A stretch of DNA of 41,138 bases, from the IMG/VR virus record IMGVR_UViG_3300027881_000034, positions 1-41,138 of that record. One strand, given 5' to 3'. This document shows positions 9,718 through 40,183 of this stretch, piece after piece. Source of the DNA: a virus. The translations under genes and the position numbers were made by a program. The notes under the pieces were generated by a model. That model was not told the origin of the DNA. It saw only the letters and a list, made by a program, of their open reading frames with translations, and made no database searches. Position 1 is the first letter of the stretch. Every line of letters begins with the position of its first letter.

Positions 9718-10667
9718 ATTATTCTCCAAAGATATTCCCAAAGTTTGGTTCCCTGCTTACGTTGTTCTTCAAACTCATTATAGCTCAGGCCGCCTAGTAA
9801 TTCGTTTTTGACCTCGTCTACAACATCTGGCCTGGATTGGTATGCGATAAGAACTGTATTCTCCTCCCGCAGAAGCTCAATAGTCCTCCTCATGCCCTCA
9901 TAGCACTCGTCCAAGGTGACACTGTACTCGGCAGGCATTGGCATATCTTCTTGCTTCAGTACTGACATCAGCTTTTGTGCATAGAAGCCATAGACCTTGT
10001 CATTGCCTATGTGCTTTCTACCTGCTTCTGGCTGTGCAGGCCACGCTGGATCTAAGTAACAAATGAAACCCTTTAATGAGGCCAGGTCCTCATCAATGTT
10101 CAAATAGTCCTTTGTTGTAATACGTGTTGAGCATCCTTTGCCAATCCGCATATTTAGGCGGGCGGCCTTCTTTATTACCAACATCCTAAAATCATCAGCG
10201 GACCAGTGCTTAGTCGTGCCATATCTAAAGTCCGACATGGCCCCGTTGGATAATACGGCCGCAATTGACACAAGCATCAGAGGACTATCCTGATTGGCCG
10301 CGCACATTGCATCAATCGTACAGGCTGTCCTCCGTCGTATTGCCGAGGTGGTAACATTATCTGCCGTCCATCCTCTTTTGTATCCTGCATGCACGCGATC
10401 CAGTATTTCTTCGCTGGCTAACGGCTTGGCATTATTTCCCAACAGGGCCTTAGCGATCAAACGTGGATAGGGACTGGCGTCATTGGCTATGAAAGTACGG
10501 CATCCAAGCTCGTACATGAATACACTACAAATACCACAACCGAATGTTAAATCCAAATATTGATTGCGTTTAGGATCCCCAGCAGGCAAGGCCGCTGAGA
10601 ACATATTCATATGGGCCCACTTGTTGCCTATGTACGGGATACCTAATGCCTTTGTTGGATAGGGCAT
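9714..10667 (-). CDS. D12-class (Dam-like) DNA methyltransferase with a DPAW motif
   Basis: The 317-residue product begins like D12-class N6-adenine methyltransferases: GIPYIGNKW (residues 9-17, AdoMet-binding region), YLDLTFGCGICSVFMYELG (motif I) and IANDASPYP. The catalytic motif IV is DPAW (206-209) in place of the usual DPPY; the aromatic residue is kept but one Pro is replaced by Ala. The ATG at 10667 overlaps the upstream stop as TAATG, with GGAGG five bases before. It lies next to queC, so a joint role in DNA protection is plausible. It could methylate adenine, or have changed substrate; the sequence cannot decide. Confidence 0.7.
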   Translation of the reverse strand: MPYPTKALGIPYIGNKWAHMNMFSAALPAGDPKRNQYLDLTFGCGICSVFMYELGCRTFIANDASPYPRLIAKALLGNNAKPLASEEILDRVHAGYKRGWTADNVTTSAIRRRTACTIDAMCAANQDSPLMLVSIAAVLSNGAMSDFRYGTTKHWSADDFRMLVIKKAARLNMRIGKGCSTRITTKDYLNIDEDLASLKGFICYLDPAWPAQPEAGRKHIGNDKVYGFYAQKLMSVLKQEDMPMPAEYSVTLDECYEGMRRTIELLREENTVLIAYQSRPDVVDEVKNELLGGLSYNEFEEQRKQGTKLWEYLWRII

Positions 10668-19050: not shown

Positions 19051-19312
19051 TGCCACCTCGCCATCTAATCTCGAATCCCCCACACCGCTTGATGTCGGCC
19101 TCATATTGTTTTGGCCAATCTTCTACATCCAAACTGACCGCCCTGTCTTTCTTTGGGATACCTACTTGATCTAATTGGTGGCCGAATTTCATCAAATGAT
19201 CAACGAGTGGTTTATATAATCTGGCCACCCTGTTAGTCTCCTCCTCCCAATCTGTCAGACAAGCTTTAATCTGCTCCTGTGACGATGTGTGTTGGTTTGC
19301 TTGCTTTGCCAT
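19043..19312 (-). CDS. Hypothetical helical protein (89 aa)
   Basis: The ATG at 19312 overlaps the clamp-loader stop (TGATG). A TTG one codon earlier makes a TTGA junction and is better spaced from GGGAGG, so that start is also possible. The product is helical (SSQEQIKACLTDWEEETNRV) with a Trp- and Arg-rich end. It overlaps the next gene by eight bases. It could be a second clamp-loader subunit by position, but no sequence supports this. Confidence 0.6.
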   Translation of the reverse strand: MAKQANQHTSSQEQIKACLTDWEEETNRVARLYKPLVDHLMKFGHQLDQVGIPKKDRAVSLDVEDWPKQYEADIKRCGGFEIRWRGGNG

Positions 19313-20286
19313 CAAAATAATAACCTCCCGGCCGCCAATATCAACGGCGCCTTCTTTAGCGACGGATTAAAGGGCTCCGATAGTTCCTCCAATATCTCCA
19401 GTAACCATCCTGCCTTCTTTTTGTCCGCGCCTTTCTTTATCCCTAGCAAAACTTTGGCCGTGTAATTGACCGTAAGGATCCTTACTCCTTCCACATTGTC
19501 GGTCTCCAATTCCTTTATCATTTGTAGGACCGTCCAAAACGGTTTGTTACTGACAATGGCACGACATATCTGTATCGGAACATCTCCCTCCTCGTCGGCC
19601 TCTTCCAATATCCTTAATACATCGGCCTTGTCCTTAACGCCGCTGCACATGCTTAGATATACAAGCGCCTGGCGAACGCTGCCATCCGCCTTGTTTGCGA
19701 TTGCTCGCAAGCTGGATTCTGACAACTTAGAACCGGCCTGCTCTGCAAACAAAACTTCATCGAGTAACTGCTGGATCTCTTTAATGTTTACCGATTGCAG
19801 ATTAAACGTGTGGCACCGAGTTTTGATTGTCTTCGGTACCTTGGCCGCCTCAGTCGTGCAGAATGCGATGTAAAGATGCTCGGGCGGCTCCTCAATTATC
19901 TTTAGCCAACTTTGCCAGGCATTCTTCGACAGGGAATGGCACTCATCAATGATAAGAAGCTTCTTTGTGTTGCCGCCGAAGGACGGAGTTTCAACATGGC
20001 GCTTTATTTCCCGCATGTCATCGATGCCGCTATAGGTGGCCGCGTCAATTTCGAGGACGTTCTGTGACAGCACGGTGAGATAATCGGGTTTTCCCAATAT
20101 CCGGGCGAGGGTCGTCTTCCCCACCCCGGAGGGGCCCGTGAATAGGTACGCATGCGGGATTGTCTGCCCCTGTAGCAGGTTTTTCAGTGCTGCTACTGCA
20201 CTAGGCTGCCCTATCACGTCCCCGAGCGTCTGAGGGCGATAGCGCACATGATAGGGATCCAGAATTCTGCGTTTTTTCTTGGCCAT
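19312..20286 (-). CDS. Clamp-loader ATPase (DnaX/RFC-like)
   Basis: The AAA+ ATPase loads the sliding clamp. It has the RFC-box-like start YHVRYRPQTLGDVIGQ, Walker A GPSGVGKT (51-58), Walker B LLIIDECHSL and the sensor/arginine region TIKTRCHTF. Its 324 residues equal a short DnaX or archaeal RFC small subunit, with no tau extension. It is immediately followed by small genes and preceded by the polymerase and clamp, so a full replication cassette is present. Confidence 0.9.
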   Translation of the reverse strand: MAKKKRRILDPYHVRYRPQTLGDVIGQPSAVAALKNLLQGQTIPHAYLFTGPSGVGKTTLARILGKPDYLTVLSQNVLEIDAATYSGIDDMREIKRHVETPSFGGNTKKLLIIDECHSLSKNAWQSWLKIIEEPPEHLYIAFCTTEAAKVPKTIKTRCHTFNLQSVNIKEIQQLLDEVLFAEQAGSKLSESSLRAIANKADGSVRQALVYLSMCSGVKDKADVLRILEEADEEGDVPIQICRAIVSNKPFWTVLQMIKELETDNVEGVRILTVNYTAKVLLGIKKGADKKKAGWLLEILEELSEPFNPSLKKAPLILAAGRLLF

Positions 20287-20294
20287 TTAACTTC

Positions 20295-22838
20295 CTAGTG
20301 ATGGTTGAACGTTTTATTGCTACTGTAATCTCCTACTGGCGATTGGTCATGCCAGTTCGGCCCTAACTTCACCTCAATAACAAGCGGCACATTAACAAAG
20401 TCGAAAGTAGGCCGGCACATCTCCCGAGCAATAGTCCTAATCCTTTTCTTATCCGAAGGCATTATAAATGTTAGGTCATCATGCACGTTCAAATTGAACG
20501 GGATACCCTTATCCTGCAAACGAATTGAGGCATCTATAACTATATCGGAGGCCGTGCCCTGTATTGGATGGTTGATTTGTTCATTGTAGCTACACGGGGC
20601 ATATCTGCGGCGGCCTGTAAGCGTCTCCACATAGCCTCGCCGGTCGTACTTGCTTACCAATTCCTTCTGCCATTCATGTATGCCTTCAAACACCGACCAA
20701 AATTCGCTGTACAAATAGTTGGCCACATCCATCGGCAGATTGAGGTTGCCTGCTGCCGAATACGCACTCGCTCCGAAGAACAACGGGAAGACCCACTTAT
20801 TCTTTACCTCCTGCCTGTATTGCTTGGCCACATCCTTATCGCGGAAGCGACCTTCTATTCCCATAGTACGTAGGCAGCCGTGGTATTCGTCATAAATGCG
20901 CTGGGCCCACTCCATGTGTACGTCATACTCATCCCACAGCATCTGCACAAAGGTATCGTCCTGCGAGGCCATAGCAATCACCCGAGCCTCAATCTGTCCA
21001 TAGTCAAAGCTTACAATGTAAAGGCCTGCCTCTTCTATTATCGACCGAATAATTTTCCAATAGCTATGATTCGGCCAGTTCTGCAGGTTAGGATCCTCAC
21101 TGTTCAATCTGCCGGAGAATGTAAATAGATGTCCGTAAGAAGTGTGCAGGCGGCCGTCTGGATATACCAGTGTGATAAGCGGATCCACGAATGTACCCTT
21201 TATGGTATTAAGGCTGCGGCATTTTAATATGACAGGCGCCACCGGATACTTTTTGGGCGATAGTTTTGATAGGACTTCGTCCTTAGTTGTTACTCCTCCC
21301 GAGGCCGTCCTACATTCCTGCACATGCATGATCTTGTCAAACAGCTCTACCATGTCTTTGTGGCTATCTGGGTTAGGATCCCGACCAACCTTCTTAACAA
21401 ACCTCTGCCACGGGCGAGTCTTGCGGCCTCTCCTAATCTGTTGGTGTATGGCCCGCTTCAGCTTGCGCTCAAGCTTGGAGGCTGTCTGCTTGTTTACAGG
21501 CACTCCTAATAGCTGGGCGCCGACAATACAGGCACCAGCGCGAACACGTTCTTTAACCACCCGTGTAAGCTTCTCCCGATGGACCTTAGCCCGCAGGGCA
21601 TAATACAGTTTCAATGTCCACTTTGTATCCAGGCCGTTGTACTCTAGCAGTTCATCAACCGTGTATGCCGTCTCCAAATCCTTCCTAGTATCAACGTCGG
21701 TTAAGGACTTAAGATAAAATCCGAAATACAGGCGTATTAAGACGTCCAAGTTCAGCATGCCTTTCCTACTGTCCAAAGCATAGGCCTGTGCCATTGTGTC
21801 AGCCCACTTTGTATCCAGCACGAGCTCGATGCCGAAAACAAATGCGAACCACTCCTGCTCGAACTTTGTATTGTGGCAAACCTTTATGCCGCTAGTGGCA
21901 ATAAACTCTCGCAGTAATTCGAAAGCTTCCTCCTGCAAGGCCTCTGTCTGCCAAAAGTCTTTTCGCGCAAGGATAAAGGCAAAGGTGCCGTGTTTCTTAG
22001 TTGTTATAGAGCAGGACAAAATCTTCGAGTCCGTTTTGTATGGCCGAAGATTTTTTGTTTCTATATCTACCGAGCAAATTTTCTCCTTGGCCATCTTATG
22101 TAAGGTTTTTTGTACAGTATGGATGTCAAACTTGTCGCCCTTCTTAATCCAACTGATGCCCTGCGAATAATTTTTTTCAATTACTATCGGATTAGGGAGG
22201 CCTTTGTCTAATGCTTTAAACAGGACCTTCAAATCTCTTTCAAAAATCTTTTCAGTTTCGGACTTGTATTTACTGCCGCCACTACGACGTAGCACTCCTG
22301 CAGGATGCAGGATAGGATAGGCCCAGCAAGTCCAGCGACCTATTCTCACAGGGATATACCTACCGCGCCATGCATAGATGCCTTGCTTGGAACTGCCGAG
22401 TAACCAATTCGTTGGCACGAGGCCTACCAGCACTATCACAGTGGGCTTGTGCTTTTCAATATCAGCTTGCTGCAAAGGTCGACAGCACTCAATCTCTTGT
22501 GGCAGCGGGTTCCGGTTTTTGGGAGGCCGACACCTTATCGTGTTATTCCAACGAACAAATTTCTGCCACTTCTTAGGAATCTGGTTCCGAAGATATTTTC
22601 CAGACTTGCCTACAAACTGTCGGCCTCGAACGTCCTCAGTCTCCCCAGGCGCCTCCCCCAGCATATAAACCGCTTTCCGAGTGGCAGCACCTGTGGGCTC
22701 CATTTTTGGAGTAGTAAGCCTGCGATCCTTATTGCGCGGACAAACCTTGCAGGAGTGCTCGTGCATTAACTCCAGTGGCATGTCAGCACCAGTCTTCTTT
22801 TTCTTGCTGGCCCCGTCCTCGTTATAAAAGAAACTCAT
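20295..22838 (-). CDS. Uracil-DNA glycosylase / family A DNA polymerase fusion
   Basis: One 847-residue frame joins two enzymes. Residues 1-208 are a family 4/5-type uracil-DNA glycosylase: CKVC (C30, C33) and later C103 and C118/C119 as iron-sulfur ligands, GEAPGETE (61-68), VGKSG, IRCRPPKNRNP and HPAG (178). From about 250 follows a 3'-5' exonuclease (SVDIET, D258/E260; CHNTKFEQEW; NGLDTKW) and then a PolA domain: motif A SFDYGQIEARV, motif B RQEVKNKW..PLFFGAS, motif C VHDDLTF. Motif B has Phe where Tyr is usual. It would read, repair and copy DNA in one chain. The frame is continuous, with no sign of a sequencing join. Confidence 0.92.
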   Translation of the reverse strand: MSFFYNEDGASKKKKTGADMPLELMHEHSCKVCPRNKDRRLTTPKMEPTGAATRKAVYMLGEAPGETEDVRGRQFVGKSGKYLRNQIPKKWQKFVRWNNTIRCRPPKNRNPLPQEIECCRPLQQADIEKHKPTVIVLVGLVPTNWLLGSSKQGIYAWRGRYIPVRIGRWTCWAYPILHPAGVLRRSGGSKYKSETEKIFERDLKVLFKALDKGLPNPIVIEKNYSQGISWIKKGDKFDIHTVQKTLHKMAKEKICSVDIETKNLRPYKTDSKILSCSITTKKHGTFAFILARKDFWQTEALQEEAFELLREFIATSGIKVCHNTKFEQEWFAFVFGIELVLDTKWADTMAQAYALDSRKGMLNLDVLIRLYFGFYLKSLTDVDTRKDLETAYTVDELLEYNGLDTKWTLKLYYALRAKVHREKLTRVVKERVRAGACIVGAQLLGVPVNKQTASKLERKLKRAIHQQIRRGRKTRPWQRFVKKVGRDPNPDSHKDMVELFDKIMHVQECRTASGGVTTKDEVLSKLSPKKYPVAPVILKCRSLNTIKGTFVDPLITLVYPDGRLHTSYGHLFTFSGRLNSEDPNLQNWPNHSYWKIIRSIIEEAGLYIVSFDYGQIEARVIAMASQDDTFVQMLWDEYDVHMEWAQRIYDEYHGCLRTMGIEGRFRDKDVAKQYRQEVKNKWVFPLFFGASAYSAAGNLNLPMDVANYLYSEFWSVFEGIHEWQKELVSKYDRRGYVETLTGRRRYAPCSYNEQINHPIQGTASDIVIDASIRLQDKGIPFNLNVHDDLTFIMPSDKKRIRTIAREMCRPTFDFVNVPLVIEVKLGPNWHDQSPVGDYSSNKTFNHH

Positions 22839-23915
22839 CTATCTTACGGCCTGTGTTGCCAGCAAGTGCATATAGGCTCCCTTGGAAAAGATAATGGCCT
22901 GCTTGCCAAAGTACACATGAGTAGAACCCTGTATAGCCTTAACAGCGAGTTCGGTGTCTACCAAAAACTTATCCCTCCCCCATTCGTGTGCAAACTTAGC
23001 GCCCGATTTTAATTTTCCAAGCGGGCTAGTGGCCTCAACCGTTACAGTTTTCAAATCGAGTGTCACTGTAACTTGCTTGGACAGATCCCCGGCCAGAATA
23101 AGCAGAGCTCTTTGGAAGCCATCAGCGAGGCCTGGAGCGATCTCCTGTCTTTTTCTTTTGTATTCGGTTGGCACAAAGGTATCAATTACTTTCTCAAAGT
23201 CCAACGGATCCTTGTTGTTTACAAGCTTACCATATATCTTGCACTCATTGCCGAAAGCAACAAGCACAAAATCATCGGCCATAGAAAACGTTATACCTTT
23301 CTCGCCGTAAACATCCCGCGCCTTCAACAAGGCCTTGCAGAGGGCTGTGGATAGTATTTTGTTATCGAAGCCTTCGCCCCAATCCTTCATGCTGTAAGTA
23401 CTTATGGCCTTGTTGTTTGTACTGTACATCCGCAGCTTATCATCTCTGTGGCCCAATGTTATTCCCATCTGCGCTGGCGTTTGGTCACCTACTGAGGACA
23501 GGCACAACTCAATGCCGTCAAAAAATCTGCGGGCCCGTGCCTCCGATAGTTTATACGTGCTCAAACGTTTTAAATTCGGCCACTTGAAAAAGAAGTCTTC
23601 CTCCTCCATGTATGGCAGCCTGGCTCGCACACCTGTTCGGACCTTGCCAGATTTGAAATACACTTTTTGGTCAGTGAATCCAATCTCGACTTCTTTCGAT
23701 TCAACGCTATTCAAAAGGCTCAACAATATATTGGCCTGGAGCGCACAGACAAAGTTGGTTGAGAAGGCGACCTGGATCCCTATAAAATCATTGTAGGCCG
23801 TTACCGACTTTCCCTGGAAACAAAAGTGAGCAAGTATTGGAATAAACTCACGCTGGTCTACAGCAAGCTTGGCCACGTCCAGTGCCTGCAACATCTTTTC
23901 GCGGTCGAATATCAT
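22839..23915 (-). CDS. DNA polymerase sliding clamp (beta-clamp-like)
   Basis: The 358-residue product has the three-repeat layout of a DnaN-like clamp: repeated hydrophobic strand pairs such as QANILLSLLNSVESKEVEI and FGNECKIYGKL, and ends with ...AYMHLLATQAVR. Size and neighbours (polymerase one base downstream of its stop, clamp loader after that) fit strongly. Sequence identity with bacterial DnaN looks low. Its ATG overlaps the DpdA stop (ATGA). Confidence 0.78.
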   Translation of the reverse strand: MIFDREKMLQALDVAKLAVDQREFIPILAHFCFQGKSVTAYNDFIGIQVAFSTNFVCALQANILLSLLNSVESKEVEIGFTDQKVYFKSGKVRTGVRARLPYMEEEDFFFKWPNLKRLSTYKLSEARARRFFDGIELCLSSVGDQTPAQMGITLGHRDDKLRMYSTNNKAISTYSMKDWGEGFDNKILSTALCKALLKARDVYGEKGITFSMADDFVLVAFGNECKIYGKLVNNKDPLDFEKVIDTFVPTEYKRKRQEIAPGLADGFQRALLILAGDLSKQVTVTLDLKTVTVEATSPLGKLKSGAKFAHEWGRDKFLVDTELAVKAIQGSTHVYFGKQAIIFSKGAYMHLLATQAVR

Positions 23916-38919: not shown

Positions 38920-39855
38920 CTATGCGGCCTCCTGATACTCTTCCTGTTCCTTCTTCCGCTTCTCAGCGAGTTCCGGAATAAGAAATTCCACAGCGAATGC
39001 ACTAAGGCGGGAGGCCTTAAAGATTAAGCTGTGGTCGTTTTTCAAAGCTTTGATCCAGGATTGGACATAACTTGCGTGGTTCGGCATCTCAGAACTGACA
39101 CCGTGTATGTTACACAGCATCGCGGCGCCAATCTCTGCCACCAGTTCCTCAAATGCATAGTCCTCAGAACCAAACGAGGTGAAGCCCGTAATGCCTACTC
39201 GGGCTAGTCGATCCTTGTGTCCGGTCCAATGCACAAGCTCATGCAGACCTGTTGCTGCGAAGCCCTCTGCCGATTTAAACCGCTCCGGTTTCGGCACTTC
39301 AATGTGGTCTGTAGTCGGAGCGTAGAACGCGCGGCCACCATTAAACTTGACAGTGGCTCCGGCGTCCTTCATAAACGACAACGTATTGTCGATGATAAGC
39401 TCATCGGCAGGCACAATGTCGTCCTCTTCCATCGGCTGTTCACGCTTCGGCAGCTTCGCGTCTTCCGTCTGCTCGATGTTAAACACGGGGAAGGTCCGCA
39501 GCATGAAAATCTTGCGCTTCTTTTCCTCGTTACCTGGGTCGTTGTCGTCCTTGATAAAGATCGGCTTGGTAAAAACTACCATGGTCGACTTCTCACCCTT
39601 CCGCACGTGGCCGCCAGCTTTCTTACACTGTTTAAACGTCAACCACTGTGCTGTGCTGTATCCCTTAGCATCCTGCACGACCCACAAGTACGGCACGTTG
39701 ATGCCCCGATACTCATGTCCGGTAATGCAGTTATGCGGCATAGCGGATCCAGCTGTGCCAGTCCACGGTCGCTGCCATGGGTTCGTGCCTGCTTCAAGCG
39801 CCGCCACGATTGTGTCGGTTACAAGCTTCCTAATTTTATCTGCTGTCATTTTCAT
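38920..39855 (-). CDS. ardC: ArdC-like antirestriction protein (ssDNA-binding plus zinc metalloprotease-like domain)
   Basis: The start at 39855 follows an exact junction element; an apparent upstream extension is not coding by this logic. The N-terminal domain (AALEAGTNPWQRPWTG, RGINVPYLWV, WLTFKQCKKAGG, VRKGEKSTMVVF) is typical of ArdC/TraC ssDNA-binding domains. The C-terminal domain has GLHELVHWTGH (HELVH at 205-209) and FEELVAEIGAAML, the zinc-ligand pattern of its metallopeptidase-like part. Known ArdC proteins protect incoming DNA from host restriction. An early position is consistent with this. Confidence 0.88.
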   Translation of the reverse strand: MKMTADKIRKLVTDTIVAALEAGTNPWQRPWTGTAGSAMPHNCITGHEYRGINVPYLWVVQDAKGYSTAQWLTFKQCKKAGGHVRKGEKSTMVVFTKPIFIKDDNDPGNEEKKRKIFMLRTFPVFNIEQTEDAKLPKREQPMEEDDIVPADELIIDNTLSFMKDAGATVKFNGGRAFYAPTTDHIEVPKPERFKSAEGFAATGLHELVHWTGHKDRLARVGITGFTSFGSEDYAFEELVAEIGAAMLCNIHGVSSEMPNHASYVQSWIKALKNDHSLIFKASRLSAFAVEFLIPELAEKRKKEQEEYQEAA

Positions 39856-39870
39856 TGTGATGCCCTCACT
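39853..39870 (-). promoter_or_regulatory. Junction element, exact copy before ardC-like gene
   Basis: AGTGAGGGCATCACAATG. The TGA is the stop of the upstream gene, GAGGG the Shine-Dalgarno, and ATG the start of the ardC-like gene, so one 18-bp block ends one gene and starts the next. Confidence 0.85.
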
Positions 39871-40183
39871 TTGCCGAACGGTTAAGAATCCGATGTTCAA
39901 ATGAGCTGGATTCGCTATGATTAAGATGCCATGCATCATCGGCCGCATGACTCGCCATGCCTTGCAAGGTCTGTAACGAGTGGCCAATGCACTCAAGCTC
40001 TGTACAAACTTCACGTTGCATATTTAGCTCGGCCGTTGTTGCACCTTGCCACTTGTCCTTGAGATTGTCGCTGTACCTCTCATCCAAATCTGAGACAGTC
40101 TCATCAAGCCGAGTATGCATTTGATACAAGGCATGCTGTAAGGCCTGTATGTCGGCCACGATCTTTGCTGTTACAAGTTTCAT
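39866..40183 (-). CDS. Helical coiled-coil protein (105 aa)
   Basis: The start follows an exact junction element. The product is helical (IVADIQALQHALYQMHTRLD, then SDLDERYSDNLKDKWQG) with a His/Ser-rich C-terminal part. Its TGA stop lies inside the next junction element. Function unknown. Confidence 0.65.
   Translation of the reverse strand: MKLVTAKIVADIQALQHALYQMHTRLDETVSDLDERYSDNLKDKWQGATTAELNMQREVCTELECIGHSLQTLQGMASHAADDAWHLNHSESSSFEHRILNRSAK

Follow-up and report, generated by a model that had tools for sequence, protein, structure and literature searches.

The window, the whole stretch of 41,138 bases analysed here, is a complete IMG/VR virus record. On its minus strand, one open reading frame (20295..22838) runs from an ATG to a stop codon without internal stops. 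It encodes a protein of 847 amino acids, a putative replicase that joins an N-terminal uracil-DNA glycosylase (UDG), a 3'-5' exonuclease and a family A DNA polymerase (PolA). A sequence-only reading of this DNA had described an in-frame UDG-PolA fusion, and the fusion is real. A disordered N-terminal tail (residues 1-18, 22785..22838, minus strand; AlphaFold2 pLDDT under 50) precedes the UDG core (residues 54-192, 22263..22679, minus strand; PF03167, 63.2 bits against a Pfam cut-off of 24.3 bits). The exonuclease domain (residues 242-419, 21582..22115, minus strand; PF01612, 57.4 bits) and the DNA_pol_A domain (residues 478-831, 20346..21407, minus strand; PF00476, 200.6 bits) follow.

In phmmer searches, the UDG part was placed with PDB enzymes of the family-4 type (best matches 4zbx, 8.5e-18, and 1ui0, 4.2e-17; also 1vk2), and the remainder of the protein matched the Klenow, Taq and Bst polymerases. 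The AlphaFold2 model, built with 61 family sequences, had a mean pLDDT of 93.4 and a pTM of 0.90. PDB structure searches with this full model listed the PolA part only, so that the evidence for the UDG fold comes from sequence, secondary structure and a full-length BFVD match; the absence of the UDG from these searches is no argument against its fold.

The polymerase gene lies between a sliding clamp gene directly upstream (22839..23915, minus strand; phrog_947, 8.9e-28) and a clamp-loader gene directly downstream (19312..20286, minus strand; phrog_5846, 1.1e-65). Further downstream are SSB-like, UvsX-like, RuvC-like and SbcCD-like genes, and upstream are a primase and helicases. Based on the clamp, the clamp loader and these other replication-type neighbours, the fusion protein most likely serves this phage as its replicative DNA polymerase. 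Its N-terminus reads M-S-F-F-Y, followed by the disordered, Lys-rich tail. An aromatic start of the form M[GSA][FLW][FLW] recurs in 27 of the 61 family members described below. This could be a short motif for binding a partner, possibly the clamp of the adjacent gene. 7-Deazaguanine genes (DpdA-like, FolE, QueD, QueE and QueC-like) are interspersed in the window. In the same phage, a 364-aa protein (38920-40014, minus strand) matches the anti-restriction family phrog_7245 at 3.2e-84.

The UDG motifs quoted in the sequence-only reading (GEAPGETE, RCRPPKNRNP, HPA and four Cys) were all found in the window protein, and they could be aligned with the family-4 enzyme Tth UDGa. Motif 1, GEAPGETED (residues 61-69, 22632..22658, minus strand), carries E62, A63 and E68, equivalent to Tth E41, G42 and E47; Ala and Gly are both normal in family 4 at the second of these positions. 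F75 corresponds to Tth F54. The next conserved region (22515..22544, minus strand) holds N99, equivalent to Tth N80, and the motif 3 residue N108, equivalent to Tth N89; RCRPPKNRNP begins here, at residue 102. Motif 2 is HPA (residues 178-180, 22299..22307, minus strand), in full HPAGVLRR, with H178 equivalent to Tth H155. The pocket formed by F75, N99, N108 and H178 is thus complete. Putative ligands of a [4Fe-4S] cluster are C30 and C33 in CKVC (residues 30-33, 22740..22751, minus strand; aligned with 4zbx and 1vk2), C103 in the N99 region, and C119 (22482..22484, minus strand), and from these cysteines the domain is predicted to bind a cluster. Cys118 and Cys171 are additional cysteines of the domain.

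Kinetics of Tth UDGa mutants have shown that E41, G42, E47, F54, N80, N89 and H155 matter, with catalysis depending most on H155, which stabilises the leaving group (PMC5387724). In the same account, N80 and H155 read uracil and E47 excludes thymine. The equivalents of all three are present in the window protein. Its pocket therefore looks like a canonical uracil pocket and nothing points to another base, so the suggestion that the domain might recognise a modified guanine was not borne out. All 11 functional positions, pocket and cysteines included, were invariant in the window clade (the window, L024, L002 and L003), compared with 54% of UDG-domain columns overall. The chance of this is 0.001 if columns are independent, which they are not, so the value is a guide only. 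Judging from these residues, uracil excision is probably active in the window phage, on DNA held at the replicase. The coupling of template checking to synthesis that the sequence-only reading had suggested is plausible.

The family was scanned at 78 loci, drawn from the best 80 of 97 relatives and located by polymerase and exonuclease patterns. Loci that were incomplete at a contig end, interrupted or wrongly started were dropped (L005, L042, L061, L068, L072 and L085), as were L067 and L079, which have large inserts, and ten sequences at least 90% identical to a kept one. The counted set consisted of 60 relatives and the window, 61 non-redundant full-length sequences. Among the dropped loci, L085 has a full open frame of 887 residues with a lost UDG site, and stands outside the 61-member counts. 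The L067 polymerase, which starts near 10001, has a long in-frame, intein-like insert within the UDG motif, after RWNNVVRC; the L079 polymerase is also longer, and the L061 gene is interrupted.

All polymerase and exonuclease residues that were counted are kept across the family. Exonuclease residues D258, E260, Y400 and D404 were invariant (61/61). The third acidic DEDDy position, which we take to be that of Klenow D424, is Glu327 in the Klenow alignment, a residue kept by at least 90% of the members. Equally invariant were the residues expected of a family A polymerase: the catalytic aspartates D612 and D787, and R675, K679 and F684 of the O-helix (region R675-K679-F684-F688-G689, 20772..20816, minus strand; Klenow and family alignments). 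F688 aligns with the O-helix Tyr of Klenow. This Phe had been singled out as a possible influence on nucleotide selection; it is present but ordinary, since family members have either Phe (39 of 61) or Tyr (22 of 61) there, with 8 changes on the tree, and its special status was rejected. Odder than Phe688 is one residue that is extra relative to Klenow, between the invariant Lys679 and Phe684, found family-wide.

Conservation of the glycosylase site was very different from member to member. Scored over six core residues (62, 63, 68, 75, 99 and 178), the site was complete in 23 of 61 members, the window included, had five residues in 8 and four or fewer in 30. Both E62 and H178 were missing in 22 members, 14 of which kept all four cysteines. 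Among the 20 members with two core residues or fewer, 18 kept C30, C33 and C119. Over the whole set, C30 and C33 were each present in 53/61 and C119 in 54/61; the CxxC pair was missing in 8/61, and four or five of these are gaps at a short N-terminus. The third ligand, C103, is Thr or Ser in 22/61 members, 13 of them with an intact site, and the extra Cys118 is found in 48/61; the cluster may use a different ligand or be altered.

The losses do not appear to be alignment errors, as argued by motifs read in 85 sequences and by a search of the unaligned N-terminal parts. In the first 260 residues of the 30 lost members, a motif 1-like string was found in one (L054) and an HP-type string in eight; in six of these eight, His178 is present in the alignment (L050, L054, L064, L077, L080 and L093). 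Loss was scored from residues, and some members might be active by other chemistry. Seven stand-alone phage UDGs (L017, L020, L021, L022 and L100-L102) all retained the Glu of motif 1 and the His of motif 2, a biased control, since they were found through UDG similarity.

On a tree built from the exonuclease and polymerase part only, the intact or lost label changed 12 times, at least nine of them on well-supported branches. Counting losses only, under three threshold definitions of loss and a midpoint root, gave 13-15 events on the best tree and 9-11 after branches under 95% support were collapsed. The glycosylase site has been lost independently at least nine times in the family. Single catalytic residues changed 11-15 times each, compared with three times each for C30 and C33, twice for C119 and six times for C103. 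Some close relatives differ in state, such as L028 (6/6) and L050 (4/6), or L035 (6/6) and L049 (2/6).

The domain itself was kept. All 85 aligned sequences had at least 210 residues ahead of the exonuclease domain, and in none was the UDG span shorter than 130 residues (139 in the window). No domain loss was seen among these 85, a sample picked by polymerase similarity from the best 80 of 97 relatives; deletions of the whole UDG domain could be missed, the search having relied on patterns in the polymerase and exonuclease.

Several pairs were saturated for dS, and dN/dS values of the UDG domain (exonuclease domain in brackets) are given for lost-site pairs with measurable dS: 0.031 (0.019) for L071/L073, 0.044 (0.050) for the Vibrio pair R01/KF4, 0.098 (0.111) for L027/L030, repeated by ZHS/L027, 0.159 (0.191) for L027/L038, 0.227 (0.167) for L033/L079, 0.243 (0.308) for L041/L045, 0.362 (0.509) for L069/L080, 0.407 (0.337) for L027/L082 and 0.423 (0.275) for L025/L033. 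The intact pair, window/L024, had 0.122 (0.143). In L027/L082 and L025/L033 the UDG value was above those of both other domains. The polymerase domain was below UDG and exonuclease in every pair reported but R01/KF4, and L077/L090 were identical. The lost-site UDG domains are largely under purifying selection, with weaker constraint in some.

Predicted structures agreed with retention. The L074 protein, with none of the six core residues and no cluster Cys, was predicted at a mean pLDDT of 91.8, and the order of predicted helices and strands in its UDG part was identical to that of the window model. The best BFVD match of the window model was the polymerase of Vibrio phage HCMJ (TM 0.91 over 892 columns), in which the UDG motifs are lost (GLTPTPNQ, DPRW).

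Gene content was compared across the window record and 37 relatives of at least 38 kb, 38 records in all. FolE was present in 16 of them. The site was lost in 12 of these 16, compared with 10 of the 22 without FolE, so that FolE-bearing relatives had, if anything, lost it more often; a link between site loss and 7-deazaguanine genes was a trend only and not significant (Fisher p 0.10). QueC was matched by Pfam in 13 records, 11 over the cut-off, and the window record was not among them; its QueC-like protein was found by PHROGs. Thymidylate synthase was matched in eight records, seven over the cut-off. A recognisable dUTPase occurred in four, and no pattern with site state was visible by eye. 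No second, compensating UDG was seen: 37 of the 38 records, which are fragments and make this a weak absence, had exactly one UDG match, each in a polymerase-size open frame (842-984 aa), and the remaining record, that of L078, had none. In Yersinia phage P744 (L013) and Serratia phage Serbin (L014), the UDG-PolA gene overlaps a cytidine deaminase gene and lies near thymidylate synthase-like genes, a hint of pyrimidine remodelling beside this polymerase type.

We propose that the protein is a single-chain replicase, with a family-4-type UDG at the N-terminus, a proofreading exonuclease and a PolA core, that would work with the phage's own clamp and clamp loader. The UDG domain would be a structural or DNA-gripping module of this replicase and its glycosylase activity an optional extra, one that the window phage probably has. 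The site was lost many times, yet length, predicted fold, mostly the Cys ligands and purifying selection persist, so excision is probably not what keeps the fusion. A non-catalytic role fits best, in which the domain may grip DNA, stabilise the polymerase or sense uracil; as the phage encodes its own clamp, any processivity role would be additional. Taken as a whole, namely a likely replicase, probable excision here and a shared UDG role that is non-catalytic, we hold this proposal to be reasonably likely. Its extension is more tentative and falls somewhat short of an even chance: that in a large family of phage replicases the UDG fold, with its iron-sulfur cluster, gives the polymerase structural support, a grip on DNA or a sensor of uracil, and that excision is an option dropped on at least nine occasions, which would make these enzymes an independently reached counterpart of poxvirus D4.

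The main rival holds that excision is the purpose of the fusion. The UDG would scan the template or nascent strand at the fork for uracil from deamination or dUTP, and the lost-site lineages would be drifting after the need had gone. That the window clade and 23/61 members preserve the full pocket speaks for this, as does the scarcity of dUTPase, recognisable in only 4/38 records and not found in that of the window. However, the lost-site domains are not eroded in length or predicted fold and mostly keep a low dN/dS, the cluster ligands change less often than the catalytic residues, and dUTPase does not track the site (two records intact, L087 and L091; two lost, L025 and L094). We regard this explanation as unlikely. 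A change of specificity is improbable. Here the 'lost' sites would act on a base other than uracil, such as a guanine derivative in 7-deazaguanine phages, in line with the more frequent loss in FolE-bearing records and with an Edwardsiella-type clade that shares a re-made pocket (Trp at 75, and Tyr or Phe at 178 in most). The FolE link, though, was also not significant when independent pairs were put to a sign test (median p values of 0.5 and 0.375), the replacement residues vary between lineages, and the window protein itself retains the uracil set.

That the domain is an inert passenger, functionless in the window too, would agree with the recurrent active-site losses among relatives and with the PaBG domain, called a UDG in PMC7412058 without having the catalytic residues. 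It is very improbable given the conservation of all 11 functional positions in the window clade, the purifying selection on lost-site domains and the lack of a single domain loss in the 85 sequences. An assembly error joining two genes was rejected; nothing spoke in its favour, and its probability is negligible: three other, independent IMG/VR contigs (64-76% identity to the window protein) and isolated phages carry the same fusion. According to the family data, uracil-free copying does not fully account for the fusion, as the UDG fold, mostly with its cluster ligands, outlives the catalytic residues, and the question raised is what a glycosylase fold does for a replicase.

The fusion is not unusual: UDG-PolA fusions are known (PMC7412058; SPO1 gp31; PDB 9qhs). 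In our searches, the new element is the repeated loss of the UDG site with the domain kept; no paper describing it was found in the open-licence literature, although it may be in print elsewhere. The polymerases of the Vibrio Mardecavirus phages (R01, KF4, HCMJ and MAR10) and of Edwardsiella phage ZHS, annotated just as DNA polymerase, are full-length homologues of the window protein, with 36-38% identity for R01, KF4 and ZHS in the family alignment. Their loci resemble the window in having a clamp gene upstream and a loader a little downstream. In these polymerases the glycosylase site has been lost (LTQTADD and SAEWFTY, compared with EAEFNNH in the window), and the Vibrio polymerases, unlike the window protein, also lack the cluster cysteines. 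In Rhizobium phage TM39 (L019, 3854-7203) the fusion looks split: two neighbouring genes each carry a PolA-domain annotation, and the first starts with a UDG domain and has exonuclease residues.

A very distant DNA polymerase I with the same UDG-exonuclease-polymerase order is described for the jumbo phage PaBG/Lupandier group, where PaBG and each of the group's 11 members have it, and is read as ensuring that the DNA it makes contains no uracil (PMC7412058). This is the one published functional reading of a UDG-PolA fusion found in the open-licence literature. The PaBG UDG part differs from that of the window in missing the catalytic residues and the Cys pattern (YVDLLQS), which bears on the uracil-removal reading. 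The Thermus phage phiLo polymerase shares with the window protein the domain order, the six core UDG residues and the four cysteines, but it is distant and longer (1175 aa). PDB 9qhs, a solved structure, matches it over all 1142 of its residues, and no paper on this entry was found in the open-licence literature. SPO1 gp31 and its relatives likewise have an N-terminal UDG-like domain on PolA, with, in gp31, a partly decayed site (ENEMSNH) and no cluster Cys, unlike the window; a dUMP hydroxymethylase is encoded by SPO1. Stand-alone family-4 UDGs, Tth UDGa among them, have the motifs and Cys positions of the window protein, but are unfused.

The closest working analogy is the processivity factor poxvirus D4, a UDG of the family-1 type that is not known to carry a cluster. 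Together with A20 and the E9 polymerase it makes a UDG part of the replicase, as in the window, and the logic of the phage module may be comparable. Poxvirus replication is reported to need the D4 protein but not its catalytic site (PMC2630940). D4 is bound through A20 as a separate subunit (PMC3946371), whereas the window UDG is fused in frame. By analogy, repeated site loss with retention of the domain gives indirect support to a D4-like need for the UDG protein rather than for its catalysis. If this reading is true, the family offers natural pairs of active and inactive enzymes. The pairs L028/L050 and L035/L049 and the isolated Vibrio and Edwardsiella lost-site phages are ready material for comparison, with the window protein as a good representative of the intact state.
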